Assembly (NCBI GenBank): GCA_005223035.1
Contig: NJBK01000003.1
Span: 62,001 to 126,000 of the forward strand
Reading direction: 5' to 3'
Origin: Chloroflexi bacterium B3_Chlor
Lineage (GTDB): Bacteria > Chloroflexota > Anaerolineae > UBA7937 > B3-Chlor
Length of the DNA stretch: 64,000 nt
Both the position numbers and the translations under genes were made by a program. Of the stretch, positions 1 to 46,175 are shown piece after piece. The notes under the pieces were generated by a model, which saw only the letters and a list, made by a program, of their open reading frames with translations, had not been told where the DNA came from and made no database searches. Position 1 is the first letter of the stretch. Each line of letters starts with the position of its first letter.

Positions 1-437
1 AGATCAATGGCATAGTCCCTGGCCTCTACCGGGACGAGGTCACCGCCAAACATCTCGGTGTATATCCTGTACATGGGGAAAGTAGAGTGACAGGCGATAC
101 TGTCGCCGCCATCATGCAGGAAAGCAAGGCACACCATGCGGAGAACATCGCACGAGCCGTTGCCGACAATGACGTTGTCTTCGTCGAAATCTGGGTCTAT
201 GAGCTCCGCGACCTTCGAGCGTAGTGCCGTATCGCACGTGCCAGGATAGCGATGGGCGTCGGCGAGAGCCTCTTTGATAGCTGCCGTGGCCAGAGGCGAG
301 GGGCCGAAGGGGTTTTCATTGGAAGCCAACTTGATGATCGTCTCCAGGCCGTACTCCCTCTGTACCTCCTCTATAGGCCTGCCTCCCACATAGAGGGGCA
401 CTCCCAGCAGATTCTCGTTAAGGGTGAGCTTTTCCAT
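1..437 (-). CDS. HisC-like class I/II aminotransferase, N-terminal part (cut by window edge)
   Basis: About 145 N-terminal residues of a PLP-dependent fold-type I aminotransferase are present; the rest lies left of the window. The segment KLASNENPFGPSP near residue 36 and the following IVGNGSCDVLRM stretch are typical of histidinol-phosphate/aromatic aminotransferases. The start is fixed by ATG at 437, preceded by GAGGTGACG. The gene lies 32 nt after the CoA-transferase gene and is probably the last visible member of a long minus-strand operon. HisC-family enzymes include true histidinol-phosphate aminotransferases and aromatic amino acid transaminases. Next to indolepyruvate oxidoreductase genes and with no his genes in sight, a tryptophan transaminase making indolepyruvate is my preferred inference. 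The PLP lysine is not visible in the window. Confidence 0.85.
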   Translation of the reverse strand, partial: MEKLTLNENLLGVPLYVGGRPIEEVQREYGLETIIKLASNENPFGPSPLATAAIKEALADAHRYPGTCDTALRSKVAELIDPDFDEDNVIVGNGSCDVLRMVCLAFLHDGGDSIACHSTFPMYRIYTEMFGGDLVPVEARDYAID

Positions 438-469
438 CGTCACCTCTACTCCTCATCAAGGAAGGGCCG

Positions 470-1663
470 TCAAATCACCCCTGCCTCTTTCAAGTCCTTC
501 ATCTTCTGTGCATCGTACCCGAGCAACTCGCCGTAGGTCTCCTGGTTGTGCTCCCCCATCCGAGGGGGAAAAGACATCTGCATATCCACGGATTCCAGAT
601 AGGGTGTAATCACCGGTGTTGGTGGCAAGAATACCGCTGTGCCAGTGCGAGGATCCCTGGAGGTTATCAACCTATCCTTGACCAGCGGATCCTCCACCAC
701 CTCCTTCACGGTGTTGACCGTGGATATGGGAACGCCTATGCTGTTGAACAGTTGAATCAGTTCCTCTGTCGTCCTGGTCTTGGTTATCTCGCTTATCTCT
801 TCATTCAGCTGCTTCACATCCGCTATCCGCCCGGCGTTCACCTTGCGCTCTTCGCGGTGCAACGAGTCGAACCCCGGCAGTTTAGTTATGGCCTGCCACT
901 GCCTGTCGTTTCCGACGGCGACATACACGTAGCCGTCCTCAGTCTCATACACGGAAACTGGGGCGAAGAATTCATGGGTGTTTCCTCTGCGCTTGATCTC
1001 CGCGCCGAAGCTCTTGGTAAGCATGACCGGATTTACCTGCCAGGAGACTGCACTCTGAAACATGGAGATGTCTATACGAGACCCCTCGCCGGTCGCCTGC
1101 CGCCTGTACAGAGCTCTCATGATCTGACCGTAGGCATGCTCGCTTGCGCCCAGGTCGGCCATGGGCAGTCCAAAGACCTGCGGCGGCCCGTCCGCCTCGC
1201 CCGTCAAACCCATAAACCCACAGCGTGCCTGTAGGATGGGGTCATAGGCCGCCTCGTTACTCTCGGGCCCAAAGCCAGTGATACCTACCCAGATTATGTC
1301 TTCTCTAATGGCTTTCAGTTGTTCGTATTCTATGCCCAACTTGGCATAGTTGCGCGGCAGCTGGTTGGAAGCAAACATATCCACATCCAACTTGAGGATC
1401 AGGTCCCGCAGGACGGCCTGGCCCTCTTCCCCCCTCAGATTCAGGGTGATCGCTTTCTTGCCTACGTTGTTGGGGAGGAAATAGCTGTCCATCGCCTCTT
1501 CCCCAAGGACGTTGCTTCCCACGAGGCGGTTGGGATCGCCCCGCTGGGGGTGCTCGACCCTGATCACCCTCATGCCTTCCGCAGCCAATCTGTAGGTGAG
1601 GTAAGGCAGGACTGTCGCCTGCTCCATGCTCAGTACAGTAAGGTCAGTGAATAGCTCCTTCAT
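470..1663 (-). CDS. Class III CoA-transferase (CaiB/BaiF family)
   Basis: A 397-residue protein, the usual length for the family. It has the N-terminal region with RVEHPQRGDPNR, the LNLRGEEGQ segment, and the central DPILQARCGFMGLTGE region followed by GLPMADLGAS, whose Asp aligns with the catalytic aspartate that carries the acyl-anhydride/CoA-thioester intermediates. Members move CoA between acyl-CoA donors and carboxylic acids. The ATG overlaps the stop of the molybdenum hydroxylase gene (ATGA), so translation is coupled. By analogy with the phenylsuccinyl-CoA transferase of anaerobic indoleacetate degradation it could activate a ring-opened aryl-succinate, but the substrate cannot be read from the sequence. 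Confidence 0.9.
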   Translation of the reverse strand: MKELFTDLTVLSMEQATVLPYLTYRLAAEGMRVIRVEHPQRGDPNRLVGSNVLGEEAMDSYFLPNNVGKKAITLNLRGEEGQAVLRDLILKLDVDMFASNQLPRNYAKLGIEYEQLKAIREDIIWVGITGFGPESNEAAYDPILQARCGFMGLTGEADGPPQVFGLPMADLGASEHAYGQIMRALYRRQATGEGSRIDISMFQSAVSWQVNPVMLTKSFGAEIKRRGNTHEFFAPVSVYETEDGYVYVAVGNDRQWQAITKLPGFDSLHREERKVNAGRIADVKQLNEEISEITKTRTTEELIQLFNSIGVPISTVNTVKEVVEDPLVKDRLITSRDPRTGTAVFLPPTPVITPYLESVDMQMSFPPRMGEHNQETYGELLGYDAQKMKDLKEAGVI

Positions 1664-3948
1664 TTCCCCTCCTGCGCTTTCTCTGCCTTTTCTCTCAAGG
1701 CTCTCAACACCTTCTCGGGGGTGATAGGCAAGTCTCGAATCCTTACCCCTACCGCATCGTAGACAGCATTGGCGATGGCTGGAGCGGTGGGGATATTGGC
1801 CGGCTCTGCCATGCCTTTGGCGCCAAAGGGACCGGCGGGGTCATCGGTCTCGATCAGGATCGTTTCGATCGGGGGCATCTCCAGTGCTGTAGGCAGAGCG
1901 TAGTCGGCGAAGTTGGGGTTGAGCATCTTTCCCTCCTCTAGCAGCACTTCCTCGTAGAGGGCATATCCCAGGCCCATGGACACCCCGCCATGGATTTGCC
2001 CCTCCACCGCCATGGGGTTGATGGCGCGCCCCACATCGTGGGCGGCCCCTATCTTCAATACCGTTACCTCTCCTGTCTCCGTGTCCACCTCGACCTCAAC
2101 GGCTTGAGTGGCGAAACTGTAGGTGGCAGAGATGTTGCCTCGAAACTCCTTGTCCTGCTTTTCAGTGGGGGGTTCGTACCAACCCCTGGTCAAGATCACA
2201 TCCCCGTCCGGCCGAAAATGCTTGCTGCGCACCATCTTGGCGAAGGGGACCCATTCCTCAGGCTCGCCCTTGAGAAATACCTTGCCGTCCTTCATGTCGA
2301 GATTCTCCACCTTATCGCCCAAGGTCTGGGCAGCCGCTTCCAGTATCTGCCGCTTGGCATCAGCTGCGGCCAGACGGGCCGAGTTGCCGGCGATGAAAGT
2401 GGTACGGCTCGCGTGGGCTCCCACGTCCCAGGGAGTGATATTGGTGTCGGTGTTGACCACGGTGATGTTCTCCACGGGGACTCCCAACTCTTCTGCCACA
2501 ATCTGGGCCAACACTGTGTCGGACCCTTGCCCCATATCGGTCGAGCCAGTTATCAGAGTCACCTTACCGAAGTCATCCACTTTCACCGTGCTTCCGCATC
2601 CATCGGAGGGATAGATTCGCGCCCCACCACCTACGTGAAACACCGAAGCCATACCTACACCCCGGTTCCCCGGCTTAGCCCGTTTCTGCTTCCAACCTAT
2701 GCTCTGGGCCGCGCTCTCGATGCATTCGGTCAGGCCACAGGTACTTATCTTCACACCCTGGCCGGTTACGTCTCCAGGCCGGTTGGCATTCTTCAACCGA
2801 AACTCCATAGGGTCCATACCAAGCTCGTGGGCCAGCATATCCATGTGCGATTCCAGGACGAAGGTGGCCTGGGGATTCCCGTACCCTCTCATCGCTCCGC
2901 TGTACGGGTTGTTTGTATAGGCCACAGTGACATCGTACTTGACGTTGGGAACGCGATAGAGGGAAGAGATGGTCAGCATCATCACGAGCGGAGTGGTAGA
3001 CCCCCAGGAACTATAAGCTCCGTTGTCCAGAATCATCCTGACTTCCCGGGCCAACAGAGTGCCATCCTTCTTGGCCCCGCTCTTTATGTCGCAGATCACC
3101 GGCTGCCGGGTGGGAGAGGCCATGAACTCCTCCTCCCTGGTGAAGGTTATCTTCACTGGGCAACCCGCCTTCTGAGCGAGGAAGACACAAATAGGCTCGA
3201 ATGGATACATGTCCAGTTTGCTTCCAAACCCACCGCCGATGACTGCCTTGATCACTCTAATCTTCGTGGCCGGAATCCCTAGAGCCATGCTCAAGTCACG
3301 CTGATACAAGAAGGGCATTTGCGTAGAACTCCAGACCGTAAGCTCGCCGGATGAGCTGAAACTGGCCAAACAAAAGCAAGTGCCCATGCAGCAATGGGTC
3401 ACGAAAGGAAGCTTGAAACGATCCTCAATGACTACATCCGAATCGGCGAAACTCTCTTGCACATCGCCATGATAGTAGGATTGGCGCATCTTCTCTTGGA
3501 TGTTATTCGGAGCTTCTTCATGAATGACGGGTGCGCCCGGCCTCATCGCCTCCTCAGGATCAAAGACCGCAGGTAGCTCTTCGTACTCGACCGTGATCAA
3601 CTCCAATGCCTCCCGGGCCGTATCCTCGTCAACGGCTGCCACGGCCGCGATCTCGTCACGTGTGGAACGAACCTTACCTGATTTGAGGACAGGATGATCC
3701 CGGGCCCAGCCGATCTTGACCTCAGGAATATCTTCAGCGGTGATCACGGCCTTCACCCCAGACAGCGCCCTGGCCCTGCTAGTGTCAACGCTCAGTATGC
3801 GGGCATGGGCGTGCTCGCTTCTGAGGATCTTGCCGTAAAGCATCCGCGGTACCTTCATATCGTGGCCGTATACGAGCTGACCCGTGACCTTGCCCGGTGC
3901 ATCCAATTTGGGCACCCGTTTTCCAACAAAGGAGAACTCCTCCGACAT
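1660..3948 (-). CDS. Xanthine dehydrogenase-family hydroxylase, molybdopterin-binding large subunit
   Basis: About 762 residues. It has the family hallmarks: QMPFLYQRDL, the GGGFGSK loop near residue 260, AMRGYGNPQ near residue 355, MGQGSDTVLAQI, and near the C terminus GAKGMAEP, which contains the catalytic glutamate. The CO-dehydrogenase loop AYRCSFR is absent, so this is an organic-substrate hydroxylase. ATG 3948 is preferred over upstream in-frame starts because GGAGGG precedes it at good spacing. It forms a molybdo-FeS-flavin complex with the two following subunits (small 3973-4431, medium 4471-5346). The family hydroxylates N-heterocycles with water as the oxygen source, which fits a pyrrole-ring hydroxylation of indoleacetate; that substrate is inferred from context. 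Confidence 0.92.
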   Translation of the reverse strand: MSEEFSFVGKRVPKLDAPGKVTGQLVYGHDMKVPRMLYGKILRSEHAHARILSVDTSRARALSGVKAVITAEDIPEVKIGWARDHPVLKSGKVRSTRDEIAAVAAVDEDTAREALELITVEYEELPAVFDPEEAMRPGAPVIHEEAPNNIQEKMRQSYYHGDVQESFADSDVVIEDRFKLPFVTHCCMGTCFCLASFSSSGELTVWSSTQMPFLYQRDLSMALGIPATKIRVIKAVIGGGFGSKLDMYPFEPICVFLAQKAGCPVKITFTREEEFMASPTRQPVICDIKSGAKKDGTLLAREVRMILDNGAYSSWGSTTPLVMMLTISSLYRVPNVKYDVTVAYTNNPYSGAMRGYGNPQATFVLESHMDMLAHELGMDPMEFRLKNANRPGDVTGQGVKISTCGLTECIESAAQSIGWKQKRAKPGNRGVGMASVFHVGGGARIYPSDGCGSTVKVDDFGKVTLITGSTDMGQGSDTVLAQIVAEELGVPVENITVVNTDTNITPWDVGAHASRTTFIAGNSARLAAADAKRQILEAAAQTLGDKVENLDMKDGKVFLKGEPEEWVPFAKMVRSKHFRPDGDVILTRGWYEPPTEKQDKEFRGNISATYSFATQAVEVEVDTETGEVTVLKIGAAHDVGRAINPMAVEGQIHGGVSMGLGYALYEEVLLEEGKMLNPNFADYALPTALEMPPIETILIETDDPAGPFGAKGMAEPANIPTAPAIANAVYDAVGVRIRDLPITPEKVLRALREKAEKAQEGK

Positions 3949-3972
3949 ACTTGCTCCCTCCGTCGCCACTGG

Positions 3973-4431
3973 TCACTCTTCACTGGCCGCCTTGATGGCA
4001 TCAACAATCTTGATGTAGCCCGTGCACCGACAGAGGTTTCCAGAGATCGCCTGCCTGATCTCTTCCTCGGTGGGCTGAGGGTTTCTATCAAGAAGGGCCT
4101 TGGCTGACATCAGCATCCCAGGCGTGCAGTATCCGCACTGCACAGCACCATACTCAATGAAAGCCTTCTGGAGAAGGTGTAGGTCCCCGCCGGAGGCCAG
4201 CCCCTCTACGGTCATGACCTCTTGGCCTCGAGCCTTGAGGGCCGGTACGAGGCAAGACGTGACTGGCTCACCGTCCAGCAGCACCGTGCACGCTCCGCAC
4301 TCACCTTCGCCGCAGGCCTCCTTGGTGCCCGTGAGTTCCAGCTGATCGCGGAGCACGTCTACCAACATGGCGTCAGGTTTGACCTCCACCGTCACCTGCT
4401 CGCCATTCAGCTTCATGGTTAGCACTTCCAT
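3973..4431 (-). CDS. Molybdenum hydroxylase small subunit, two [2Fe-2S] clusters
   Basis: A 152-residue protein with the plant-ferredoxin-type N-terminal cluster motif CGEGECGAC (residues about 40-48) plus a further Cys, and the C-terminal four-helix cluster domain with CGYCTPGM (about 99) and CRCTGY (about 134). These are all eight cysteines expected of CoxS/XdhC-like subunits. It passes electrons from the molybdenum centre to the FAD subunit. It sits between the medium and large subunit genes with short spacers. The start at 4431 has a modest AAGGGA upstream; an internal Met at residue 6 is an alternative. Confidence 0.93.
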   Translation of the reverse strand: MEVLTMKLNGEQVTVEVKPDAMLVDVLRDQLELTGTKEACGEGECGACTVLLDGEPVTSCLVPALKARGQEVMTVEGLASGGDLHLLQKAFIEYGAVQCGYCTPGMLMSAKALLDRNPQPTEEEIRQAISGNLCRCTGYIKIVDAIKAASEE

Positions 4432-4470
4432 AGTCCTTAGTCCCTTGAACTCACCTTTCCCTTTCTGTGT

Positions 4471-5346
4471 TCACCCTTCAGCAGCCCGCACAGCCCGTTC
4501 CAGGGCTCGCCTGAGCAAGACCTTGACCATCTCTTCACGATACTCCCGTGAGGCCCGCAACGGGTTGCTCCGCGGCTGTGCCTCTTGAGCAGCCACCTCC
4601 AATGCGCGCTCGACGGCCTCTCCCTCAACTGCTTTTCCCCGCAGCGCTTCCTCGGCCTTCCGGGCCCTGAAAGGCGTGAGCGCCACAGGGCCAAGGGCCA
4701 ATCTGACGTCCTCAAAAGCGGTACCGTCACCGTTCAAAGTGGTCACCACGGCCGCGTTCAGGATCGGCAGCGACAAGGCTCTTCGCTTCGCCAAGCGACC
4801 GAACGATGAGCCCTCGTTGCCATCCAGGGCTCGAAAACGCAGGGCCACGAGGATCTCAGCACTGGCGTTCACAGTCGATTCTCCCGGCCTTACATATAGG
4901 CTCTCCAAGAGCTCTAGTCGGGTTCCCTGGCTCCCGACGATCTCCGCCTGTGCATCCAGCGCCGTCAGGGGAATCGCTGTGTCCGCGGCGGGCTGCGCGT
5001 TGACTATGTTGCCACCCACCGTCCCCATGTAGCGTATCTGTGGAGAACCCACCGCTGATGCGCCCTCGGCCAACGCAGCGGCCTTTTCCCGGATCAGATC
5101 AGATGAGGACAGGTGCTGATGAGTGACGCCAGCACCGACTCTGATCACGTCTCCTTGGAGCTCGATCCCCTTTAGCTCATCCAGGCGGCTGATGTCCACC
5201 AGGCACTCAACCTTTCGCTCCCTCTTCTTCAACTGGGGAATCAGGTCCGTCCCGCCGGCGATCACCCTCGCCTGGCCTTGGTACTCCGCCAGCATCTCCA
5301 GAGCCTCCTCAATCGACGCCGGGAGGAGGTACTTCTTCCACTTCAT
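4471..5346 (-). CDS. Molybdenum hydroxylase medium subunit, FAD-binding
   Basis: A 291-residue CoxM-type protein. The N-terminal FAD-binding loop reads IAGGTDLIPQ (about residue 30) and the second, pyrophosphate-binding stretch reads MGTVGGNIVNAQPAADT (about 107), followed by the CO-dehydrogenase flavoprotein C-terminal domain. The start ATG overlaps the iorB stop codon (ATGA), so the Mo-hydroxylase genes are translationally coupled to the indolepyruvate oxidoreductase genes. That strongly suggests the two enzymes work in the same pathway. It accepts electrons from the [2Fe-2S] subunit and delivers them to an unknown acceptor. Confidence 0.92.
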   Translation of the reverse strand: MKWKKYLLPASIEEALEMLAEYQGQARVIAGGTDLIPQLKKRERKVECLVDISRLDELKGIELQGDVIRVGAGVTHQHLSSSDLIREKAAALAEGASAVGSPQIRYMGTVGGNIVNAQPAADTAIPLTALDAQAEIVGSQGTRLELLESLYVRPGESTVNASAEILVALRFRALDGNEGSSFGRLAKRRALSLPILNAAVVTTLNGDGTAFEDVRLALGPVALTPFRARKAEEALRGKAVEGEAVERALEVAAQEAQPRSNPLRASREYREEMVKVLLRRALERAVRAAEG

Positions 5347-5894
5347 TGTTCCCTCCGATAACCAGCTTCAAAGGCTTCCAGATTCACCACCCTGAATCTT
5401 GATGGAGTAATGCGTTCAATGGTAGCCTTGATCTCATCGTGGCCGAAGGGCAGCTGAGGCACGCTCACAGCATAGCCGATGAGAGCCAGGTTGGAGGAGC
5501 GCGGAGAGCCGAGTTCCAGGGCTATCTTGTCGGCTCCGAAGCTATGAGCGGTGATTTCATTCCTGGCCAAGTATGCCTCCACCCCCGCGTCCCAGAAATC
5601 GCCCCGAGAACTGTTGACGAAGCAAAGGCCGCCACGCCTGACAAAGGCCAAAGTACGGTACACTTCGTCCTCGTCGAAGGAGATTAGGACGTCAGCCGTG
5701 CCGTGGCGAATCAAGGGGCTCGCGTACACGCCAATCTTCAGGTGTGAGATAACTGAGCCTCCTCGCTGGCTCATCCCGTGGGTCTCGGAACCCAAGATGT
5801 CGCACCCCAGGGCCAAGGCGCTCTCCGAGAATATCCTGGTCGCGAAGAGGACACCTTGACCTCCCACACCGGAAAGGATCAGTTTCAAGTCCAT
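5343..5894 (-). CDS. iorB: Indolepyruvate:ferredoxin oxidoreductase, beta (gamma-domain) subunit
   Basis: A 183-residue protein beginning MDLKLILSGVGGQGVLF, the glycine-rich signature of the pyruvate/ketoisovalerate oxidoreductase gamma domain, followed by ETHGMSQRGGSV. I chose ATG 5894, 7 nt after the iorA stop, over an upstream in-frame start inside iorA. With IorA it oxidatively decarboxylates aryl pyruvates to aryl-acetyl-CoA and reduces ferredoxin. No strong ribosome site is visible, which fits coupling to iorA. It overlaps the next gene by ATGA. Confidence 0.92.
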   Translation of the reverse strand: MDLKLILSGVGGQGVLFATRIFSESALALGCDILGSETHGMSQRGGSVISHLKIGVYASPLIRHGTADVLISFDEDEVYRTLAFVRRGGLCFVNSSRGDFWDAGVEAYLARNEITAHSFGADKIALELGSPRSSNLALIGYAVSVPQLPFGHDEIKATIERITPSRFRVVNLEAFEAGYRREQ

Positions 5895-5901
5895 CTCATT
5901 G

Positions 5902-7764
5902 CTAGGCTTCAACGATGCACTCCTTGGGACACGCTTCAATGCAGACTCCGCAATTGACACAGATCCGCCGATCAATAACCACCCGGTCCAGAGCCTCGTT
6001 GAGTACGAGAGCCGGGCATTCGAAGGCCAGCTGACAGTACTGGCAACCATCGCACTCCTCGGTGACGGCTACCCGCACCGGATTCTCTTGCAAGGGAGTA
6101 GGGTCGTAGAGCACGCACGGACGCTTGGCGATAAGGACGGCGATTCCGCCATCCGGCTGTCGGGAGTACTCTCGCGCTCGCTTGACCAGCGCCTCGAAGT
6201 CTCTCACGCGATAGGGATCCATCTCCTCAATGAAACCTACGCCACAGGCTCGCACGAGGTCCTTGATAGCCACCCTCTGGCCCTGACGACCGTCGGCCAA
6301 GATGCCCGAATCGGCCGTGGGCTGCATTCCGGTCATGGCCGTGATGCTGTTGTCCAAGATGATCAGGATAAAGCGGGCCTGGTTGTGAACGGCGTTAGCC
6401 AGAGCAGGGACTCCTGCATGCAGGAAGGTCGAATCACCGATGGTCGCGGCGATGGGCACATCCTTGCCGTCTTGATGGTAGGCTTGATACAAGCCACTGG
6501 CGATGGTAACTGCCCCTCCCATGTCGAGACACGTATCCACCGCTTTCAGGTTCAGGCCCAAGGTGTAGCATCCGATGTCACTGGGATAGATGGCGTTCGA
6601 ACCTAGAACTCTCTTCATGGCGAAGAAAGCAGCGCGGTGCATACAGCCCGGGCACAGCCGTGGTCGCCGGACGGGAAGATCCAAATCGGCGACCAGCGTC
6701 GCCAACTCCCGGGTATCAGTCTCAGGAGGCAACTCCAAGCCTAGCTTGTCCATCTCCGCAGTCACGATCTGACTTATCACTTCGGGTGTCAGCTCGCCCG
6801 CTGATGGCACTACGCCGTTGTGTCGGCCCAGCACCTTGTGCTTGTCCAGAACCTGCAACTCGATGACGGCGTCCGGTTCCTCAAGGATCAGTACCTGGTT
6901 GCACCCTGCCACAAAGTCAGCCACCAGCTTCTGCGGCAGGGGGTGAGGCGTTCCAATCTTGAGAATGGGGAACCGTCCGTCCAGTCCTAGCTCTCGGAGC
7001 GTGTCAGTCAAGACGGAATAGCTGGTTCCTCCAGCTATGAAACCCAGCGTGTGGTCTTGACCTTCGTCACATGCATTGAGCTCCGACTTCTCAAACTCCT
7101 CCTCGATGCTTGCCAACTTCTTGTTCAGTTCTTTGTGCAAGATGTATCGGAAGGGAGGCGTCGCCGCCCAGCGCCCGGGGTCCTTCTCGAAGTCGGCAGG
7201 GCGCTCGAGTTCCTGGACTGGCAGGAATGTGATGTTCTGTCTGGCATGGGAGACACGGATGGCGGGGCGAAGGATGACCGGCATACGGTGTTTCTCCGAT
7301 AGCTCGAAGGCAGCCTTGACCATCTCCTTGGCTTCCCGCGGGCTTGAGGGATCAAGAGCTGGCACCTTGGCGAACATGGCGAAGAACCGGGTATCCTGCT
7401 CCGTCTGGGAGGAATGAGGCCCGGGGTCGTCGCAGCAGATGATCACAAAGCCGCCCTTGACCCCGGTGTAGGCCGAACTCATCAGTGGGTCGGCGGCCAC
7501 ATTCAGACCGACCTGCTTCATAATCACCGCGCCCCGCTTGCCGGTGTAGCTGGCCGCCAGGGCCACCTCGTAGGCCACCTTCTCGTTGATACTCCACTCA
7601 ACATGGGTGGCTAGGCCCAATTCCTTCTTGAACCGTACCACCGCTGGCAAAATCTCAGAACTTGGCGTACCAGGATAAGAGGCCACCACATGGCATCCAC
7701 TCTCTACGATGCCTCGTGCGATGGCCTCGTTACCCAGGAGCACCTCTTGTCTCAGTTCACCCAA
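5902..7764 (-). CDS. iorA: Indolepyruvate:ferredoxin oxidoreductase, alpha subunit
   Basis: About 620 residues. It has the N-terminal pyrimidine domain (LLGNEAIARG, ASYPGTPSSEI), the C-terminal ThDP domain with RLCPGCMH and the Mg/ThDP motif GDSTFLHAG...LDNS, and two terminal [4Fe-4S] motifs (CDGCQYC and CVNCGVCIEAC), as in bacterial and archaeal IorA. The enzyme converts indolepyruvate (or other aryl pyruvates) plus CoA to the aryl-acetyl-CoA, CO2 and reduced ferredoxin. The start is uncertain. TTG 7764 has AAGGA 8 nt upstream and gives a family-like N terminus; GTG 7830 and GTG 7743 are alternatives. This is an oxygen-sensitive enzyme type, so it points to an anaerobe. Confidence 0.92.
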   Translation of the reverse strand: MGELRQEVLLGNEAIARGIVESGCHVVASYPGTPSSEILPAVVRFKKELGLATHVEWSINEKVAYEVALAASYTGKRGAVIMKQVGLNVAADPLMSSAYTGVKGGFVIICCDDPGPHSSQTEQDTRFFAMFAKVPALDPSSPREAKEMVKAAFELSEKHRMPVILRPAIRVSHARQNITFLPVQELERPADFEKDPGRWAATPPFRYILHKELNKKLASIEEEFEKSELNACDEGQDHTLGFIAGGTSYSVLTDTLRELGLDGRFPILKIGTPHPLPQKLVADFVAGCNQVLILEEPDAVIELQVLDKHKVLGRHNGVVPSAGELTPEVISQIVTAEMDKLGLELPPETDTRELATLVADLDLPVRRPRLCPGCMHRAAFFAMKRVLGSNAIYPSDIGCYTLGLNLKAVDTCLDMGGAVTIASGLYQAYHQDGKDVPIAATIGDSTFLHAGVPALANAVHNQARFILIILDNSITAMTGMQPTADSGILADGRQGQRVAIKDLVRACGVGFIEEMDPYRVRDFEALVKRAREYSRQPDGGIAVLIAKRPCVLYDPTPLQENPVRVAVTEECDGCQYCQLAFECPALVLNEALDRVVIDRRICVNCGVCIEACPKECIVEA

Positions 7765-7868
7765 TAGATGATTCCTTGCGGCGAGTGCTCCAATGGCGAA
7801 GCAGCGGCGGACACAGCCAAAAGCGTCCACGGTTGCATCGCTCAGCAGCGGCGCGATCCGCCACCACG

Positions 7869-8693
7869 CTACTCGTCAAATCTGAAAACCGGCTCCTGAT
7901 AGAACCTCACGCGGTTGTCCTTGATCTTCCTCTTGATCGAACTGTCGAGCCAGATGTTTTTCTGCTCTAGGGGTAAGTCAGAATCGAGCATCACCATATC
8001 CACGTTGAGCCCCAACGCTCTGCCAGAGATCGTGTGTCGGGTCACACCCATCGGCACCTTCGCCCCGTTAAGTGATGTCCTCATAATCTCACCACGACTA
8101 TAAGAAGGAAAGACCACCACCGCGGTGAGATCCGGGTACTCCTCCAGCAAACCTTCCAGTTCGTCGGTCGCGGCCCGGTATACGTCCGCCTGGCCTTTGT
8201 ATGCGTCGACCACGTCATTCAGAAGGGTAACCTGCGCTTCCAGGTTCATCCCTCCCTTGACGCCCAAGACAGTGCCATCCTGCAACACCACATAGCAGAG
8301 AATCGTCCTGAGGCACAGCGCCCTGCGGGCCAGACCCAGGTCCATGGCCTTGACCTCCACCCCTTCAATGTCTTCCAGGCCCTTCACCAGCTTGTCCCTC
8401 GATACGTTGACCACGGCATGACACCAGGCGAACAACTGGATGCTGGGCGCATGGTAATCCACTATCTGGACCAGGACGTCCCGGATGCCGAGCTCCCTCA
8501 AAGCCGCTACCCTTGTGGCCCCGTCCAGGACCACAAATTGATCTCCTGCTTCCGTCACCACAGGCGGGTTCTTGAGGATGCCGTCACTTTGCAGGCGCCG
8601 AGCGAGCCTTTCAACCCGCTTCGGATCTACTTCCTCGTGACCGATCACGTCTGTGGAATGAACGATGCGCAGGACAACGTCGCCGATTTTCAT
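7869..8693 (-). CDS. ParB/sulfiredoxin-fold protein, SerK/SbnI-like free-serine kinase candidate
   Basis: A 274-residue protein with an N-terminal ParB-like domain: HSTDVIGHEEVDPKRVERL, SDGILKNPPVV and VVLDGATRVAALRELGI. The HE pair and the DG(A/T)xR loop correspond to the catalytic and nucleotide-binding segments of archaeal ADP-dependent serine kinase SerK and staphylococcal SbnI, which make O-phosphoserine from free serine. There is no HTH or DNA-binding C-terminal domain as in partition ParB; a roughly 150-residue C-terminal domain follows, as in SbnI. ATG 8693 is chosen because AAAGGGAG lies just upstream. It sits directly downstream of a TrpB2 gene, whose family can use O-phosphoserine, so the pair makes biochemical sense. 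Activity is inferred. Confidence 0.7.
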   Translation of the reverse strand: MKIGDVVLRIVHSTDVIGHEEVDPKRVERLARRLQSDGILKNPPVVTEAGDQFVVLDGATRVAALRELGIRDVLVQIVDYHAPSIQLFAWCHAVVNVSRDKLVKGLEDIEGVEVKAMDLGLARRALCLRTILCYVVLQDGTVLGVKGGMNLEAQVTLLNDVVDAYKGQADVYRAATDELEGLLEEYPDLTAVVVFPSYSRGEIMRTSLNGAKVPMGVTRHTISGRALGLNVDMVMLDSDLPLEQKNIWLDSSIKRKIKDNRVRFYQEPVFRFDE

Positions 8694-8720
8694 AAGCTCC
8701 CTTTTGCCTCGCAGGCTAGA

Positions 8721-8796
8721 AGGGAAGGACAAGGAACTTGCTCCTCGCCCTTCCCTGACTCATCTAGCGGCGTCTGCATAGAGGCGTCCGCCTCTA
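8721..8796 (-). other. Two stem-loops between trpB2 and the serine-kinase-like gene
   Basis: Positions 8779-8796 form a perfect inverted repeat (TAGAGGCG/CGCCTCTA) that includes the trpB2 stop codon. Positions 8721-8728 and 8749-8756 pair as AGGGAAGG/CCTTCCCT. Neither is followed by a T-run, so they look like mRNA-processing or stability elements rather than a terminator. Confidence 0.5.
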
Positions 8797-10164
8797 CTGA
8801 TACTCTGGTGCAACCTCGGGTAGCTCGGCCTGCGCCGCTTTGATCTTGTCCTCGGGGTACTCGTAGTTGACCAGCTCCCCTGCAAAGTACGCGTCATAGG
8901 CCCCCATATCGAAGTGACCGTGCCCACAGAGGTTGAAGGCGATGACCTTCTCCTCACCGGTCTCCTTGCACTTCAGAGCCTCGTCCATAGCCACCTTGAT
9001 GGCATGAGCCGGCTCCGGCGCTGATATGATGCCCTCTGCCAGGGCGAAGCTCGCCGCAGCCTCGAAGGTAGGAACCTGGTGCTCAGCGCGAGTCTCCATG
9101 ATCCCAAGCTCATTTAGCAGGCAGATGATGGGCGCCATGCCGTGGTACCGCAGCCCTCCGGCGTGGATGGGGGCAGGTATGAAGCTGTGGCCGAGGGTGT
9201 ACATCTTCGCCACAGGCCCCGTCTTGGCCGCATCGCCGAAGTCATGCCTGTAGAGGCCCTTGGTTACGGAAGGAGAGGCCATGGGCTCCACGCAGATGAT
9301 TTGGATGTCTTTGCCATCCTTGATCTTGTCTGGGACCCAAGGAAGACTGAAACCACCCATGCTGCTGCCGCCACCGATGCAGCCGATCAGCATATCCGGG
9401 TAGTCGTCCGCCATCTCGAACTGCTTCTTCATCTCCTGCCCGATGACCGTCTGGTGCAACAAGACATGGTTAAGTACGCTGCCCAACGAGTACTTCGTGC
9501 CCTCGGTGGTGACGGCGTCCTCAACCCCCTCGCTGATGGCTAGCCCGAGGCTGCCTGTGTGCTCAGGATCTTCTTCCAGGTACTTCCTCCCGACGGAAGT
9601 GTCTGCGCTCGGGCTGGGCACGATTGTGGCGCCCCAGGCCTCCATCATGCTCTTGCGATAGGGCTTCTGCCGGTAGCTGATCGCCACCATGTACACCTTG
9701 CACTCCAGGTCGAAGAGATTGCAGGCAAAGGCCATAGCGCTACCCCACTGCCCAGCACCCGTCTCGGTGCTTATGCGCGTCTGCCCCTCCATCTTGTTGT
9801 AGTAGGCTTGCGCCACTGCCGTGTTGGGCTTGTGGCTACCGGGCGGGCTTACCCCTTCCCACTTGTAATAGATACGGGCGGGCGTGTCCAGGGCCTTCTC
9901 CCAACGATAGGCTCGATACAGGGGTGTGGGGCGCCACAGCTTGTAGACCTCGCGCACCGGCTCCGGGATCTCTATCCACCGCTCCTGACTCACTTCCTGC
10001 ATGATCAACTCCATGGGGAAGAGAGGAAGCAGATCATCCGGTGTCACAGGGTCCAACCTGCCGGGGTGAAGCACTGGTGGCAAGGGCTCGGGCAGGTCCG
10101 GCTGAACGTTGTACCAGTGGGTCGGGATATCTTTTTCGCCTAGAAGAAACTTAGTCTGTTCCAT
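8794..10164 (-). CDS. trpB2: TrpB2-type tryptophan synthase beta-like enzyme (PLP)
   Basis: A 456-residue protein, longer than the roughly 400 of canonical TrpB, with the N-terminal extension and RPTPLYRA segment of the TrpB2 group. The PLP lysine lies in GSHKPNTA (about residue 118), [10 protein letters not shown] provides the catalytic-loop region, and [10 protein letters not shown] is the phosphate-binding glycine loop. No trpA is nearby. TrpB2 enzymes work without TrpA, condensing free indole with a serine donor; at least some archaeal ones prefer O-phosphoserine. ATG 10164 is fixed by AAAGGAG upstream. It is the first gene of the unit read from the promoter at 10362-10390, followed by the serine-kinase-like gene and iorAB. 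It could instead salvage indole or run another beta-replacement. Confidence 0.9.
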
Positions 10165-10361
10165 GTCTTCGCTCTCCTTTGGGTTAGACTTGGAGACTCC
10201 AAGAGGGCCTGGATCTTTCCTGAGGATCATCTACGGATGCGGACCCCCTGAAGCTCGGGCTGAGGTTCGATGAAAAGAAGCCTCCATCATCGTTCCTACG
10301 ATAGACATCACCCCCTTTCATCCACTCCGATGGACAGCACCCGACCGGCAAGACAATCGTA

Positions 10362-10390
10362 AGTATAGCACCAAGAGCGGCGTTGAGCAA
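10362..10390 (-). promoter_or_regulatory. Promoter of the trpB2-iorAB-Mo hydroxylase unit
   Basis: On the minus strand a -35 TTGCTC (10385-10390) is separated by 17 bp from a -10 TATACT (10362-10367), placing a leader of about 190 nt before trpB2. I see no T-box sequence and no run of Trp codons in that leader. Confidence 0.65.
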
Positions 10391-10405
10391 CCCTCAACGC
10401 TCTTG
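10372..10405 (-). repeat. Inverted repeat overlapping the -35 box
   Basis: Arms CGTTGAG (10381-10387) and CTCAACG (10393-10399), extended by an outer CAAGA/TCTTG pairing, form a long imperfect palindrome that covers the -35 region of the trpB2 promoter. It lies 33 nt after the V4R gene. It could be a terminator-like hairpin of the upstream unit (no T-run follows) or a repressor operator; the overlap with the promoter favours an operator. Confidence 0.5.
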
Positions 10406-10437
10406 GCGGCTTCGCCGCAGTCACGATTCGCAGGAAC

Positions 10438-10941
10438 TCACCCTTGCAGCACGAAGCGGCACAGTTCGTCTCCCCTGGCCCGGCACAGAGTCTCCTCTGA
10501 CCTAACCTCCGTCCCGAAGATGCCGGCAGCCATGCCTGCCATCACGCCGCGTATCATGTGGCACACGCCCCGGTCCGCGGTGCCGTAGGCCTCGGCAAAG
10601 GGCGAATTCCTCACCACGACTATCAGTTCTTTGCCCTCTGTATCAAGCTTCTCAACCTCGAACTTGCCCCAACCAATCTCTCCCCCCATTGTGCACATGA
10701 AGGCTACTATCTCCTCGTCGGAGTAGTTGAAGACCTCCTTGTACCTGGTCGAGGAGCGTGACCCACCCGTGTAACCGCCAGCCATCATCATCTCGGCCAC
10801 TCTGTCGCCGACCTCCACCTCTACCGCCTTCTGGAAGTCCACCACAGTGTCTGGCCGCATGACCATGTACCGCACGTCTTGGAAGGAGATGCACCCGCTG
10901 TCCGCGTCGTAGTCCAGGTTGTCCAAGATAGAGTTCTCCAT
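10438..10941 (-). CDS. V4R-domain protein
   Basis: A 167-residue protein whose C-terminal half matches the V4R (4-vinyl reductase) small-molecule-binding domain: a hydrophobic NSPFAEAYG segment, the GVMAGMAAGIFG helix and the closing ETLCRARGDELCRFVL, where paired cysteines and the RGDxxC pattern are typical. The start is preceded by GGGTGAGGG. It lies 6 nt after hyuB, so it is cotranslated with the HyuAB hydrolase. V4R domains bind hydrocarbons or other ligands as sensors or accessory subunits. Here it may be a third subunit or chaperone of the ring-opening enzyme; its function is not established. Confidence 0.75.
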   Translation of the reverse strand: MENSILDNLDYDADSGCISFQDVRYMVMRPDTVVDFQKAVEVEVGDRVAEMMMAGGYTGGSRSSTRYKEVFNYSDEEIVAFMCTMGGEIGWGKFEVEKLDTEGKELIVVVRNSPFAEAYGTADRGVCHMIRGVMAGMAAGIFGTEVRSEETLCRARGDELCRFVLQG

Positions 10942-10947
10942 TCGCCC

Positions 10948-12669: not shown

Positions 12670-12710
12670 CTAGTACCTCCTGAGCTCAAAAGTGACTACA
12701 TCTCACCCTA

Positions 12711-14762
12711 TCACAGAGGGACGATGATGTTGCCATACTCGTCGACCGTTCCCTTGACGTCTGGTGTAAGCACCGTTGTCGAGGCCATCTCCTCGACCAA
12801 GGCAGGGCCACTGACGACATGCCCAGGGCGTAGGAGAGCACGGTCATAGATCGCCGTGTCGATGAAGCCCTCGGTAGGAAAATGAACCGGACGAGTACCC
12901 TTACGTGCTATCTCAGCATCGCCATCTCCGGCGCCGCTGTGGGCAAGCGATACCTCGGGCACCTTCCCGATGGCCGCCACCCGCACGTTGATGAACTCGA
13001 CCATCTCGTCAACAGAGCCGTAGGCATAGATGCGGTAGTGCAAGTCATGGAAAAGATCCACAATCTCTTTGATGTCAGCCTGCGTGAGAGGCTCTTTCCG
13101 CGTCACTGGGGTGCTGAGCTCATACGATTGCCCTTGGTACCGCAAGTCCGCTGACCATAGAATCTCGATCTCAGCTTCGGGAACGCTCTGTCCCTTCAGC
13201 TGGTCTCGGCCCTGCGTCTCCAGCTCCTTGAACGCTGCCAACAGTTCTTCAGGCGTGAGTTCCTTCTCGTTCTTGGCGACAGTGGAAGCATAATCATAAC
13301 GTGTGTTAGCTACCAGCAAACCCACCGCGGAGAAAGTCCCGGCATAAGGGGGCACGACCACCCTTTTCATGTCCAAGTCCTGTGCGAGTTCGACCGCATG
13401 CAGCGGCCCTGCGCCTCCGAAAGGTAGCAGGGCGAACTCTCGGACGTCGAACCCCTTCTCCGTTGAGTTCACGCTAATGGCGCGCTCCATGTTTGCGTTG
13501 ACCACGCGGATTATCCCACTGGCGGCCTCTTCGAGGGACACCACCAGGGGCTCAGCCACATGCTGCTTGATGGCCTTTTCAGCCAACTCCGGATACAGCT
13601 TCATCTCCCCGCCCAGGAAGTAGTCGGGGTTGAGGCGGCCCAATACCAGATTGGCGTCGGTGACCGTCGGTCGTTCCCCACCCAGTCCGTAGCAGGCTGG
13701 GCCTGGCTCGGAGCCGGCGCTCTCAGGGCCCACGTTCAGCGCTCCCCCTTCATCAATCCAGGCCAGGCTCCCGCCTCCAGCGCCGATCGCCTGTACATCC
13801 AAGATGGGAATCTTGACCGGGAAGCCCTCGAACTGACTCTCGGGGGCCACTCGAGGTTCACCATGATCTATCACACCAACATCGAAGCTGGTACCGCCCA
13901 TGTCTACGCTGACGACCTGTTGGTCGCCCGTCAGCCGCCCCACGTACGCAGCCGCCAGTGCCCCTCCAGCCGGGCCTGAGTTGACTATGTTGACCGCTCG
14001 ATACTTGGCCATCTCGGTAGTCATGGAGCCGCCGCTGGCCTGCATGATTCGCAGGTCCACATCACCGTACCGGTCACTCAGCTGTCCTTCCAGATTGTCG
14101 ATGTACCGCTCCACGACTGGGGCCAGATATGCGTTGATGACCGTGGTCGAAGTGCGCTCGAACTCACGAAATTCGGGGGCGAGTTCAGAGGAGATGGAAA
14201 CAACAGCCTCGGGAAACATACTCTGGCAGATTTCCTGTAGCCTTTTCTCGTGTGTGGGGTTGCAGAAGCTGAAGAGGAAGGTAACAGCTATCGACTCCAC
14301 ACCCTGGTCCTTGAGGAAGCTCACCGCCTCGCGAGCCGATTCCTCGTCAAGGGGGACCACCACCTGACCATCTGCACCGACTCGCTCTTTGACATCCAGT
14401 CGCAGATACCGGGGCACGAGAGGCAGTGGCGTATCAACGAAGATGTCGTACAGGCCGGCGGCTGGCCGCTCGATGCGACCTATCCCCAGCACGTCCCTCA
14501 TACCTTGAGTGGTTATCAGGCCCGTTCGCGCTCCCTTGCGCTCGATGAGGGCGTTGGTGCCTATTGTCGTGCCGTGCACCATGTAGTCTACCTGGTCAAA
14601 GCCAGCGCCGACCATGCCCAATATCCTATCAATGCCTCCGATGACCCCTTTCGCCAAATCGTCATGAGTGGTCAGCACTTTGGTATAACGAATCTGACCG
14701 CTGACATCGTCAATCAGTACAATGTCAGTGAACGTCCCTCCGACATCAATGCCAATACGCAT
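12711..14762 (-). CDS. Hydantoinase A/oxoprolinase-family ATP-binding subunit
   Basis: A 683-residue HyuA-family protein with the N-terminal phosphate loop MRIGIDVGGTFTDIVLID, the VDYMVHGTTIGTNALIERKG segment, VNSGPAGGALAA, the SVDMGGTSFDVGVI second phosphate motif and FGGAGPLHAVELAQ of the actin/hexokinase-like fold. It is of usual length and carries no fusion to HyuB, so the two subunits are separate here. It uses ATP to activate the substrate amide or ketone for its partner HyuB, 41 nt downstream. It lies between the acyl-CoA mutase and hyuB genes, which ties lactam opening to a CoA-ester rearrangement. Confidence 0.92.
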   Translation of the reverse strand: MRIGIDVGGTFTDIVLIDDVSGQIRYTKVLTTHDDLAKGVIGGIDRILGMVGAGFDQVDYMVHGTTIGTNALIERKGARTGLITTQGMRDVLGIGRIERPAAGLYDIFVDTPLPLVPRYLRLDVKERVGADGQVVVPLDEESAREAVSFLKDQGVESIAVTFLFSFCNPTHEKRLQEICQSMFPEAVVSISSELAPEFREFERTSTTVINAYLAPVVERYIDNLEGQLSDRYGDVDLRIMQASGGSMTTEMAKYRAVNIVNSGPAGGALAAAYVGRLTGDQQVVSVDMGGTSFDVGVIDHGEPRVAPESQFEGFPVKIPILDVQAIGAGGGSLAWIDEGGALNVGPESAGSEPGPACYGLGGERPTVTDANLVLGRLNPDYFLGGEMKLYPELAEKAIKQHVAEPLVVSLEEAASGIIRVVNANMERAISVNSTEKGFDVREFALLPFGGAGPLHAVELAQDLDMKRVVVPPYAGTFSAVGLLVANTRYDYASTVAKNEKELTPEELLAAFKELETQGRDQLKGQSVPEAEIEILWSADLRYQGQSYELSTPVTRKEPLTQADIKEIVDLFHDLHYRIYAYGSVDEMVEFINVRVAAIGKVPEVSLAHSGAGDGDAEIARKGTRPVHFPTEGFIDTAIYDRALLRPGHVVSGPALVEEMASTTVLTPDVKGTVDEYGNIIVPL

Positions 14763-14894
14763 ACTCTCTTGTCCCCCACTCCGAGTCTTCGTCCCTCTCT
14801 GCAGACGAGAGGGCGACCAAGCATCACATCATCAGGAGCGCAGGTCGGGCTGGCTCTCTATGCGATCACGCCTTGCTCACGCAGTCTGGCGGAT

Positions 14895-16496
14895 CTATAG
14901 CCCAACTGGTTCCTTGAACTCGCCAAAAACGTCTTTGAGCACCTGAGTCATCTCGCCGACCGTGGCATAGGCTCGCACAGCCTCCATGACGTACGGCATG
15001 AGGTTCTCCGTCCCCTGGGCTGCACGACGCAGATTCTCCAAAGTCTCACTCACTTTGGCGCCATCGCGCTCGGCCCTCAACTCGTTTAGTCGCCGAATCT
15101 GCTCCTCGGCTCGTTCTGGTTCATACTCATGCAGCTCGACGTCCCGCTCCTCTGCCTCGATGCGGTATTTGTTCACACCAACCTTGACGATCTCGCCTCT
15201 CTGGATGCCCTGCTCATAGAGGTACGCCTGGCCCGCTACCTCGCGCTGGATGTGGCCCTCGCTGACGGCCTTGACAATGCCCCCCATTTTCTCCACCTTC
15301 TCCATCTCTTCTGCGATCTTCTCCTCCAGATCGGTGGTCAGGCGCTCAATGTAGTATGAGCCAGCGAGGGGATCCACCGTGTCACACAGCCCCATTTCCT
15401 CGACCAGGATCTGCATGGTGCGCAGGCCGATCAGGGCTGCCTTCTCCGTGGGTATGGTGTAGGCCTCGTCATAGGTGCACAGGGCCATCGTTTGGGTGCC
15501 GCTGAGGGCCGAGACGAGGGCGTAGTAGGCGCCACGCACCACATTGTTCTCCGGTTGCTCGATGGTCAGCCCGCCGCCACCACCGCCAGCGATCATCTTC
15601 ATCTGCATCGCCTTGGGACTGGTGGCTCCGAACTTCTCCCGAACTATCTTCGCCCAGAGACGACGCGCGGCGCGGAACTTGGCTACTTGCTCGAATAGAT
15701 TGCCCCAGATGTCAAAATTGAAGGAAAGTCGAGCCACGAAGTCGTCAACGTCCACACCCCGCTCACGCACGTGGTCGACATATGCCGAAGCGATGGCGTA
15801 GGCATAGGCGATCTCCTGCACAGGATTGGCTCCCGACTCACGGATGTGATAGCCGCATACGCTTACAGGATAGTAGTAAGGCACGTTCTGCGCGCAGAAC
15901 TCGATAGTGTCTCCGATCTGGCGAATGGAGGGCTCCACCGGAAAGATCCAGGTTCCCCGCCCGATGTACTCCTTGAGGATGTCATTCTGAGCCGTACCCC
16001 GAAGTTCCTGCAGAGGCACTCCCTGTTTCTCAGCCACGACGAAGTACATAGACATCATGATCGCCGCCACACCGTTGATCGTCAGGCTGGTGCTGATCTC
16101 GTCCAGAGGGATACCCTCAAAGGCCTCCTCCATGTCGCGCAAGCTGTCAACCGCCATGCCCACGCGCCCCACCTCACCCCAGGCAAGAGGATTGTCGGAA
16201 TCCAGTCCCATCTGTGAAGGCAGATCGAAAGCCACGTTGAGGGCATTCTGTCCGTGGGAAATGAGGTACTTGAAACGCTGGTTGCTCTCCTGGGGTGTGC
16301 CGAAGCCAGCGTATTGCCGCATGGTCCAGGGCCGGTACCTGTACATGTACTTGTGGATGCCCCGCGTGAAAGGATAGGCACCCGGCTCGCCGATATCCTC
16401 GTCGTGATCTATGTCAGCCACATCCTCGGGTCCATATATTGGCTTGACGCTGATGCCCGATTCCAGAACTACATCTCGCAGTTTCTTCTCTTTCAT
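14895..16496 (-). CDS. Methylmalonyl-CoA mutase-family acyl-CoA mutase, large (catalytic) subunit
   Basis: A 533-residue TIM-barrel domain of the B12-dependent acyl-CoA mutase family without the C-terminal cobalamin-binding domain, so a separate small subunit is needed; none is in the window. Family stretches are RPWTMRQYAGFG, NVAFDLPSQMGLDSD, SLTINGVAA, GTAQNDILKEYIGRGTWI, SVCGYHIRESGA and AYDEAY-like TYDEAYTIPTEKAALIGLRT. Near residue 47 the segment that reads YPTMY in methylmalonyl-CoA mutases is HKYMY, altering two residues near the acyl group. ATG 16496 has AAAGGG upstream, and a strong promoter lies at 16688-16716. In the indoleacetate pathway a mutase of this family rearranges aryl-succinyl-CoA to benzylmalonyl-CoA; ordinary methylmalonyl-CoA activity cannot be excluded. 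Confidence 0.88.
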   Translation of the reverse strand: MKEKKLRDVVLESGISVKPIYGPEDVADIDHDEDIGEPGAYPFTRGIHKYMYRYRPWTMRQYAGFGTPQESNQRFKYLISHGQNALNVAFDLPSQMGLDSDNPLAWGEVGRVGMAVDSLRDMEEAFEGIPLDEISTSLTINGVAAIMMSMYFVVAEKQGVPLQELRGTAQNDILKEYIGRGTWIFPVEPSIRQIGDTIEFCAQNVPYYYPVSVCGYHIRESGANPVQEIAYAYAIASAYVDHVRERGVDVDDFVARLSFNFDIWGNLFEQVAKFRAARRLWAKIVREKFGATSPKAMQMKMIAGGGGGGLTIEQPENNVVRGAYYALVSALSGTQTMALCTYDEAYTIPTEKAALIGLRTMQILVEEMGLCDTVDPLAGSYYIERLTTDLEEKIAEEMEKVEKMGGIVKAVSEGHIQREVAGQAYLYEQGIQRGEIVKVGVNKYRIEAEERDVELHEYEPERAEEQIRRLNELRAERDGAKVSETLENLRRAAQGTENLMPYVMEAVRAYATVGEMTQVLKDVFGEFKEPVGL

Positions 16497-16687
16497 AGCC
16501 AAGCCCTTTCACTATTTCCGTCGGCTGTGTGCTACGAGTCATGTGATCCCGAACACCCAGACGCATCCGAGATTTGCAGCGCCTATTCCAAGGATTGAAG
16601 CAGCTTCCGCCATGCCAGGTTGCTTAGGTCGGCTTTGTCGCTCCAAGGCTTGGGGGGAGACCTTCAAGCACGCGGGCGAGCTTTGCT

Positions 16688-40213: not shown

Positions 40214-40240
40214 AACAAAAAGATCCCCAGGCGACGACCT
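40214..40240 (-). terminator. Probable rRNA operon terminator
   Basis: On the minus strand the 3' side of 5S rRNA is followed by GATCTTTTTGTT; the terminal 5S helix plus this T-run (40217-40221) can act as an intrinsic terminator. Confidence 0.5.
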
Positions 40241-40344
40241 ACTCTCCCGCACCGTTACCAGTGCAGTACCATCGGCGCTGGGGGGCTTAACTTCCAGGTT
40301 CGGTATGGAGCTGGGTGTTTCCCCTCCGCTAGCGTCACCTGAGG
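40227..40344 (-). rRNA. rrf: 5S ribosomal RNA
   Basis: The minus strand shows the conserved 5S core (GAACCTGGAAGTTAAG and the closing GGAGAGTAGGTCG). Length is about 117 nt; the ends are approximate. It is the last gene of the rRNA operon. Confidence 0.93.
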
Positions 40345-40452
40345 AATAATACTCTTGCGATAGCAAACTGCAGGGCTTCTCCCCCCTACAAGGATCAGCA
40401 CCCTAAGAACTGAACAGAATGCTTAAGTCAAAACCGCCGAGTCGTGTTGTAG

Positions 40453-43516
<3,064 letters not shown>

Positions 43517-43862
43517 ATACGATCGGCGGAATTGAATCTCTCGCATTCTGTTCAGTTGTTAAGGTGCTAATCTCGTGTCTTGCGACACAAAACGACCTGG
43601 GACATCGCCCAGGCCGCAATACACTCCCCGGGATTGATAATCCCTCTACTTACCTCTTCCTTTCTGTGCAGCTATCATTCATGATTCCTGTCTCTATCAC
43701 AAAACCAACTTACAGTATACAACATTATCGGAACTTTGTCAAGTGACGATTTCTTAAACTTCGGATCGCGACCAGCCTTTCCCAACTCGCCCCATCACGA
43801 CCCATCCTCTTGTGCTCTTAGACTGGCTTCTGGCCGAACCACGCTCGCCCACTTCGGCTGAG

Positions 43863-44111: not shown

Positions 44112-44123
44112 GCAACAGTCTCG

Positions 44124-44637: not shown

Positions 44638-46175
<1,538 letters not shown>

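Follow-up and report, generated by a model that had tools for sequence, protein, structure and literature searches.

A 20-gene operon in an Anaerolineae genome that probably degrades tryptophan anaerobically through an iaa pathway without its entry ligase

Which substrate is broken down by the genes at the left end of the stretch of DNA considered here? This stretch, the window, comprises 64,000 nucleotides (positions 62001-126000 of contig C60) of G000, an Anaerolineae (Chloroflexota) metagenome-assembled genome (MAG) of 2.8 Mb that is 85% complete. An earlier note on the window had pointed to an aminotransferase, an indolepyruvate ferredoxin oxidoreductase (IorAB), a three-subunit molybdenum (Mo) hydroxylase, a hydantoinase-like pair (HyuAB), a class III CoA-transferase and a B12-dependent mutase, and had proposed that tryptophan (Trp) is degraded here by the chemistry of the iaa pathway. 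This proposal is supported by gene content, orthology to the iaa-type clusters of sulfate reducers, conserved linkage, sequence motifs and the absence of a ligase from the operon. The genes belong to a 20-gene operon that is probably devoted to breaking down Trp in the absence of oxygen, through a form of the iaa pathway that does without the ligase. The new element is the entry of Trp; the iaa pathway itself is already known.

The iaa pathway of anaerobic indoleacetate degradation reportedly goes back to work of Ebenau-Jehle in 2012 and of Schuhle in 2016. The operon and pathway occur in Aromatoleum aromaticum EbN1 and A. evansii and have been predicted in sulfate reducers and Ferroglobus; the pathway starts from indoleacetyl-CoA (Schuhle, 2021; PMC8360864). 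The operon in G000 shares with this system an acyl-CoA dehydrogenase with a GGG motif, a class III CoA-transferase, a two-subunit B12 mutase, a hydantoinase-like pair and a Mo hydroxylase. It differs by the lack of the IaaB ligase, an entry through aminotransferase and IorAB, a pair of TrpB2 and a SerK-like protein, another HyuAB subfamily together with a V4R-domain protein, the lack of electron transfer flavoprotein (ETF) genes, and an enzyme resembling 4-hydroxybenzoyl-CoA reductase (4-HBCR) inside the operon.

The operon spans 24 kb, all on the minus strand, and the window contains only its right-hand part (1-16502). Its left end lies beyond the window, at G000:C60:54332 (L003:12232, L003 being the contig left of the window; other L-numbers denote further loci). 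Genes on the opposite strand bound this directon, a response regulator gene on the left and a CorA gene on the right, and the intergenic gaps are mostly below 65 bp, with a maximum of 207 bp. The MAG G003 has the identical gene order and other genera carry the operon too, so that an assembly accident is excluded. All genes named in the earlier note are present; TrpB2, the SerK/SbnI-like protein and the V4R-domain protein had not been named. Its suggestion to follow the contig leftward in search of the B12 small subunit, an acyl-CoA dehydrogenase and anthraniloyl-CoA genes was rewarded with the small subunit, two acyl-CoA dehydrogenases (ACD1 and ACD2) and a candidate reductase at the anthraniloyl-CoA level. 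The genes are as follows, in window coordinates unless a contig position is given:

1..443, extending left to -678 (L003:19222), minus strand: HisC-like aminotransferase, predicted to convert Trp to indolepyruvate; PF00155; TIGR01141 316.7 bits, cut-off 276.6
470..1663, minus strand: class III CoA-transferase, IaaL-like, predicted to shift CoA from one carboxyl of 2-aminophenylsuccinate to the other; PF02515 (CoA_transf_3), 270 bits
1660..3969, minus strand: Mo hydroxylase large subunit, putative C2 hydroxylation of indoleacetyl-CoA; MoCoBD domains
3973..4431, minus strand: Mo hydroxylase [2Fe-2S] subunit; Fer2 and Fer2_2, eight cysteines
4471..5346, minus strand: Mo hydroxylase FAD subunit; FAD_binding_5 and CO_deh_flav_C, 4Fe-4S loop cysteines absent
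5343..5891, minus strand: IorB, beta subunit of indolepyruvate:ferredoxin oxidoreductase; POR domain PF01558, adjacency to IorA conserved
5902..7830, minus strand: IorA, alpha subunit, which would convert indolepyruvate and CoA to indoleacetyl-CoA, CO2 and reduced ferredoxin; TIGR03336 666 bits, cut-off 651
7869..8732, minus strand: SerK/SbnI-like protein that may be a free-serine kinase; matches SbnI and SerK best, far below equivalog cut-offs
8794..10230, minus strand: TrpB2, tryptophan synthase beta of the stand-alone kind, making Trp from indole; TIGR01415 617 bits, cut-off 519
10438..10941, minus strand: V4R-domain protein of small-molecule-binding type; PF02830 55 bits
10948..12669, minus strand: HyuB, ATP-dependent lactam hydrolase subunit, putative ring opening; PF02538 575 bits, caprolactamase beta 349 bits
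12711..14762, minus strand: HyuA, ATP-dependent lactam hydrolase subunit; caprolactamase alpha 628 bits, PDB matches N-methylhydantoinase and 5-oxoprolinase
14895..16502, minus strand: B12-dependent mutase large subunit, IaaG/H-like, predicted to convert 2-aminophenylsuccinyl-CoA to 2-aminobenzylmalonyl-CoA; TIGR00641 641 bits
G000:C60:60119-61258, minus strand: ACD1, acyl-CoA dehydrogenase; GGG motif (LLLGGGTSEV)
G000:C60:58921-60066 (L003:16821-17966), minus strand: ACD2, second acyl-CoA dehydrogenase; GAG motif
G000:C60:57916-58905, minus strand: 4-HBCR-like FAD subunit
G000:C60:57445-57912, minus strand: 4-HBCR-like [2Fe-2S] subunit
G000:C60:55151-57502 (L003:13051-15402), minus strand: 4-HBCR-like large subunit
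G000:C60:54711-55151, minus strand: VOC protein, epimerase-like
G000:C60:54332-54790 (L003:12232-12690), minus strand: B12-binding mutase small subunit; TIGR00640 155 bits, cut-off 57

In the route proposed for these genes, all substrates are predicted from sequence, and so is the direction in which the route runs. The aminotransferase would convert Trp to indolepyruvate, from which IorAB, using CoA, would form indoleacetyl-CoA, CO2 and reduced ferredoxin; since IorAB would make indoleacetyl-CoA, no ATP-dependent ligase would be needed. The Mo hydroxylase would produce 2-oxo-indoleacetyl-CoA, and ATP-dependent opening of the lactam by HyuAB would give (2-aminophenyl)succinyl-CoA. The class III CoA-transferase would shift CoA to the other carboxyl, after which the two-subunit B12 mutase would form (2-aminobenzyl)malonyl-CoA and the VOC protein would act as epimerase. 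Oxidative decarboxylation by the GGG acyl-CoA dehydrogenase would lead to 2-aminocinnamoyl-CoA, and general beta-oxidation to 2-aminobenzoyl-CoA and acetyl-CoA. Lastly, the 4-HBCR-type Mo enzyme would possibly deaminate 2-aminobenzoyl-CoA reductively to benzoyl-CoA with ferredoxin electrons, followed by a bzd-type benzoyl-CoA reductase. TrpB2 and the SerK-like protein may feed in free indole as a side entry.

The main new point is the start of this route, where the ligase (IaaB position) would be replaced by an aminotransferase and IorAB that lead directly from Trp to indoleacetyl-CoA. IorA exceeds the TIGR03336 cut-off and IorB has the POR domain, which identifies the pair as an indolepyruvate ferredoxin oxidoreductase; in contrast to known IorAB, the pair stands in a ring-degradation operon and not in peptide fermentation. 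The aminotransferase is the sole TIGR01141 match above cut-off in G000. A plain HisC function was weighed for it, as the only HisC above cut-off, but this role in histidine biosynthesis is unlikely because hisD was not found in the assemblies of G000, G001 and G002, although G003 has hisD. No AMP-binding gene (IaaB-type ligase) is present within the 20-gene directon, and the operon is therefore classed as a variant with another entry instead of a standard iaa operon. The exchange fits the chemistry, as the product of indolepyruvate oxidoreductase is indoleacetyl-CoA, the start of the published pathway. In 15 loci of sulfate reducers and syntrophs the cluster includes an AMP-binding ligase, a homologue of the L105 ligase at 61-100% identity, which lies between HyuB and the Mo genes where its position was seen; this is the IaaB position. 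Such a ligase is lacking in G000, G002, G003, G077, G107 and L086, all of which have IorAB and, except for L086, the aminotransferase. G098 and L057 have a weaker ligase homologue (42-43%) beside the aminotransferase, with IorAB also in G098, and the Desulfobacula-type loci L067, L108, L111 and L120 have both ligase and IorAB.

The middle of the pathway can be compared with known iaa-type clusters. The CoA-transferase is 60-67% identical to those of iaa-type clusters versus approximately 33% to the CaiB-family background; Asp170 is invariant in the cluster alignment. This identity and the linkage of the gene to those of the mutase and the GGG dehydrogenase mark the enzyme as IaaL-type. ThnP and ThnO of naphthalene degradation were rejected as a closer model, ThnP being a family I CoA-transferase and no relative. 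The earlier note had stated that its reading would be refuted if the mutase fell firmly among the methylmalonyl-CoA mutases (MCM) and the Mo hydroxylase and HyuAB among purine, nicotinate or hydantoin enzymes. The trees of the mutase and of the Mo hydroxylase came out against this refutation. In the former, 24 cluster mutases from Anaerolineae, Acidobacteriota-titled and Desulfobacterota-type genomes form one separate clade (100/100), apart from the MCM and further mutases that these genomes encode. The mutase of G000 is 57-65% identical to the sulfate-reducer cluster mutases versus 49% to the MCM of G000 itself, and scores 528 bits against the 876 required for PRK09426; a second, separate mutase is encoded on contig C9. 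At the MCM substrate positions, numbered by offset after the Propionibacterium enzyme, the MCM residues at Tyr89, Gln197, Arg207 and His244 are kept, with Ser114 changed to Asn in all 24 cluster mutases. Nearly forty positions are fixed differently in the cluster mutases. Judged by these residues, the cluster mutase is of the dicarboxylate type with an altered pocket.

The dehydrogenase can be compared by its motif with an assayed enzyme, as IaaF has been assayed and reported to have GGG in place of YEG (Schuhle, 2021; PMC8360864). ACD1 of G000 reads LLLGGGTSEV, and GGG is present in ACD1 of every Anaerolineae cluster seen as well as in the sulfate-reducer cluster dehydrogenases. In a 57-row tree made by a quick method with only eight outside rows, 49 GGG/GAG dehydrogenases stand on one side of a branch with a Shimodaira–Hasegawa-like approximate likelihood ratio (SH-aLRT) of 99. 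By motif and grouping ACD1 is of the IaaF type. ACD2, with GAG, sits inside this group of 49, and its counterpart in G003 has GGG.

The Mo hydroxylase is placed in one clade as well: the 12 cluster rows of its large subunit group together (100/100), apart from the remaining Mo hydroxylases that these genomes encode and nearest to the group with the 4-HBCR-like enzymes. The position of the catalytic Glu is retained (GAKGMAEP), and the enzyme presumably acts on the indole ring. For HyuAB the outcome is mixed. The pair is of the lactam-hydrolase type, has its nearest relatives among enzymes of the caprolactamase, N-methylhydantoinase and 5-oxoprolinase types, and would be apt for ATP-dependent lactam hydrolysis, but it belongs to a different subfamily from the pairs in sulfate-reducer clusters. 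G107 combines HyuAB of the sulfate-reducer type with a mutase of the Anaerolineae type. Most clusters with HyuAB of the Anaerolineae type also have the V4R protein, whereas clusters with the sulfate-reducer type lack it, some contigs being too short to tell; the protein is possibly a sensor or an accessory subunit.

The layout, which the earlier note had not seen described in this type of organism, is not peculiar to this one. A mutase of the clade, at 67% identity or more, was found in G000 and in 10 of 120 sampled relatives, across six families of the class. Between families the clusters are rearranged, with aminotransferase, IorAB, Mo hydroxylase, CoA-transferase, ACD1, mutase subunits and HyuAB staying together; several are cut by contig ends, and that of G041 is only partly similar (IorA homologue 35%). 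Among the sources of public loci are Ardenticatenaceae, a MAG titled 'Acidobacteria' and numerous sulfate reducers and syntrophs. The Desulfobacula-type clusters have IorAB nearby and share the CoA-transferase, mutase subunits, HyuAB and Mo genes; they keep the CoA ligase, and aminotransferase and TrpB2 are absent from the stretch seen. In L102 (Desulfarculaceae), CoA-transferase, GGG dehydrogenase, ETF beta/alpha, an ETF-QO-like protein, mutase and HyuA stand together, a set that matches the sulfate-reducer iaa operons as described (Schuhle, 2021; PMC8360864). A plasmid tblastn search for Proteobacterial iaa genes with ACD1, mutase and CoA-transferase returned background paralogues only. In the literature searched, no iaa operon fed by Trp is described for Chloroflexota, and neither published intermediates nor a Trp route in Chloroflexota came to light, although the founding iaa papers may already note part of it. 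Separately, L065, L060, L074 and L092 have an IaaL-like CoA-transferase and a GGG dehydrogenase with no mutase in the stretch seen, and in the last three the downstream genes resemble the ETF set of L102; these loci may belong to an additional pathway or to a cluster that is simply split.

At the lower end of the pathway stands the second Mo enzyme, whose closest solved relative is 4-HBCR of Thauera aromatica (1rm6). Its FAD (beta) subunit keeps the four [4Fe-4S] loop cysteines, aligned with 1rm6_B. However, the 4-HBCR equivalog cut-offs are not reached (698.6 versus 994.6 bits and 293 versus 404.6 bits), and the catalytic Glu of the xanthine oxidase (XO) family is missing from the large subunit, being Leu or Met in most members (GAKEAGL, GAKEAGM, GAKESGM). 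Relatives of the enzyme adjoin iaa-type genes in L102. Reductive deamination of 2-aminobenzoyl-CoA, reported in Azoarcus evansii (PMC4539516), is possibly a fitting role. For the step that would follow, contig C7 encodes subunits of a bzd-type class I benzoyl-CoA reductase (BzdO 623 bits, cut-off 449; BzdQ 422 bits, cut-off 380; with a further ATPase subunit adjacent) and contig C20 encodes Had (470/339 bits); BzdN was not seen, the contig ending beside the BzdO/BzdQ genes. An HGD-D pair on C31 was rejected as benzoyl-CoA reductase, as it is an activase set of the generic kind, with threonine and D-Ala genes as neighbours.

TrpB2 scores 617 bits against a TIGR01415 cut-off of 519 and has 6hul_B as closest solved chain. 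Its neighbour matches SbnI and free serine kinase in the PDB and is a fold-level relative only, with 73 versus 350 and 53 versus 380 bits against the equivalog cut-offs. Across several genera, TrpB2, the SerK-like gene and IorA follow one another in this order (G000, G003, G117, L054, L086 and G107), and G098 has TrpB2-IorA, which makes seven loci with TrpB2 before IorAB. In the G000 assembly trpA and trpC were not found, and six more genomes with the cluster likewise lack trpC. Lost Trp synthesis alone does not explain the pair, because G098, G107 and G117 keep trpC, the first two with TrpB1 too. The conserved pair hints that free indole may enter via Trp, which is a real possibility, against which stand the low scores of the SerK-like protein and the lack of both genes in G002. 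Indole salvage through Trp, by TrpB2 of Thermococcus kodakarensis and in Bifidobacterium (PMC11085991), likewise joins indole to a serine donor. In contrast to these systems, TrpB2 lies here within a catabolic operon, and therefore the Trp product may be burned and not kept. A more specific scheme is unlikely as a whole: free indole would be degraded anaerobically by way of a carrier amino acid, with serine activated by the SerK-like protein and linked to indole by TrpB2 to yield Trp, which aminotransferase and IorAB would pass on to ring opening, and the 4-HBCR-like enzyme without catalytic Glu would be the reductive deaminase of 2-aminobenzoyl-CoA.

Among the competing explanations, the first retains the arylsuccinyl-CoA/arylmalonyl-CoA chemistry but applies it to another aryl substrate, such as acids derived from phenylpyruvate or hydroxyphenylpyruvate or a free aryl lactam, with Trp incidental. 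In general, IorAB enzymes are not strictly specific to indolepyruvate, all substrates here are predicted, and HyuAB belongs to another subfamily than the pairs of sulfate reducers. Nevertheless, a Mo hydroxylase and an ATP-dependent lactamase would serve no purpose on a phenyl ring that lacks the nitrogen of indole, and TrpB2 precedes IorAB in seven loci and therefore ties the module to indole, so that we regard this explanation as improbable.

Alternatively, the module of aminotransferase, IorAB, TrpB2 and SerK-like protein could be anabolic, with a Trp auxotroph building Trp from outside indole or indoleacetate by reversal of IorAB, and only the remainder catabolic. The gaps in trpC and trpA described above would suit such an auxotroph. 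On the other hand, TrpB2 also stands beside IorAB in the three genomes with trpC, the reverse reaction requires indoleacetyl-CoA while the operon has no ligase, and G002, in which neither TrpB2 nor the SerK-like gene nor any other TrpB was found, retains aminotransferase, IorAB and every other part save SerK. The anabolic explanation is accordingly quite improbable. That MCM, hydantoin utilisation and a purine-type Mo hydroxylase are unrelated operons that became neighbours by chance suits the generic family names of single genes (XdhA, hydantoinase, MCM), but is extremely improbable given a linkage conserved through rearrangement across six families, trees that exclude MCM and other Mo hydroxylases, and the separate mutase on C9.

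Some findings weigh all the same against Trp catabolism through an iaa pathway lacking the ligase. HyuAB is only approximately 40%/33% identical to the sulfate-reducer pairs, and ACD2 and the V4R protein have no place in the proposed pathway. Orthology to the assayed Iaa enzymes is indirect, the comparison set being sulfate-reducer clusters. Moreover, the 20-gene operon contains no gene for ETF, MeaB, a hydratase or a thiolase, and the genome is a single MAG, 85% complete.

If Trp catabolism is indeed the function of the operon, uncultured Anaerolineae, which are common in sediments and digesters, would have a route to mineralise Trp, which is among the amino acids hardest to degrade without oxygen. 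It would also show that an auxin-degradation pathway can be entered without an ATP-costing ligase. Oxidative decarboxylation would yield the thioester together with reduced ferredoxin, the reductant needed by class I benzoyl-CoA reductase. In addition, candidates can be named for two steps, the reductive deamination of 2-aminobenzoyl-CoA and the entry of free indole.

Outside the operon, G000 encodes six AOR-family proteins. The window further carries a 16S-Ile-Ala-23S-5S rRNA operon with bacterial rRNA genes at 40226-46174, and a T-box leader adjoining tRNA-Val at 58016-58253.

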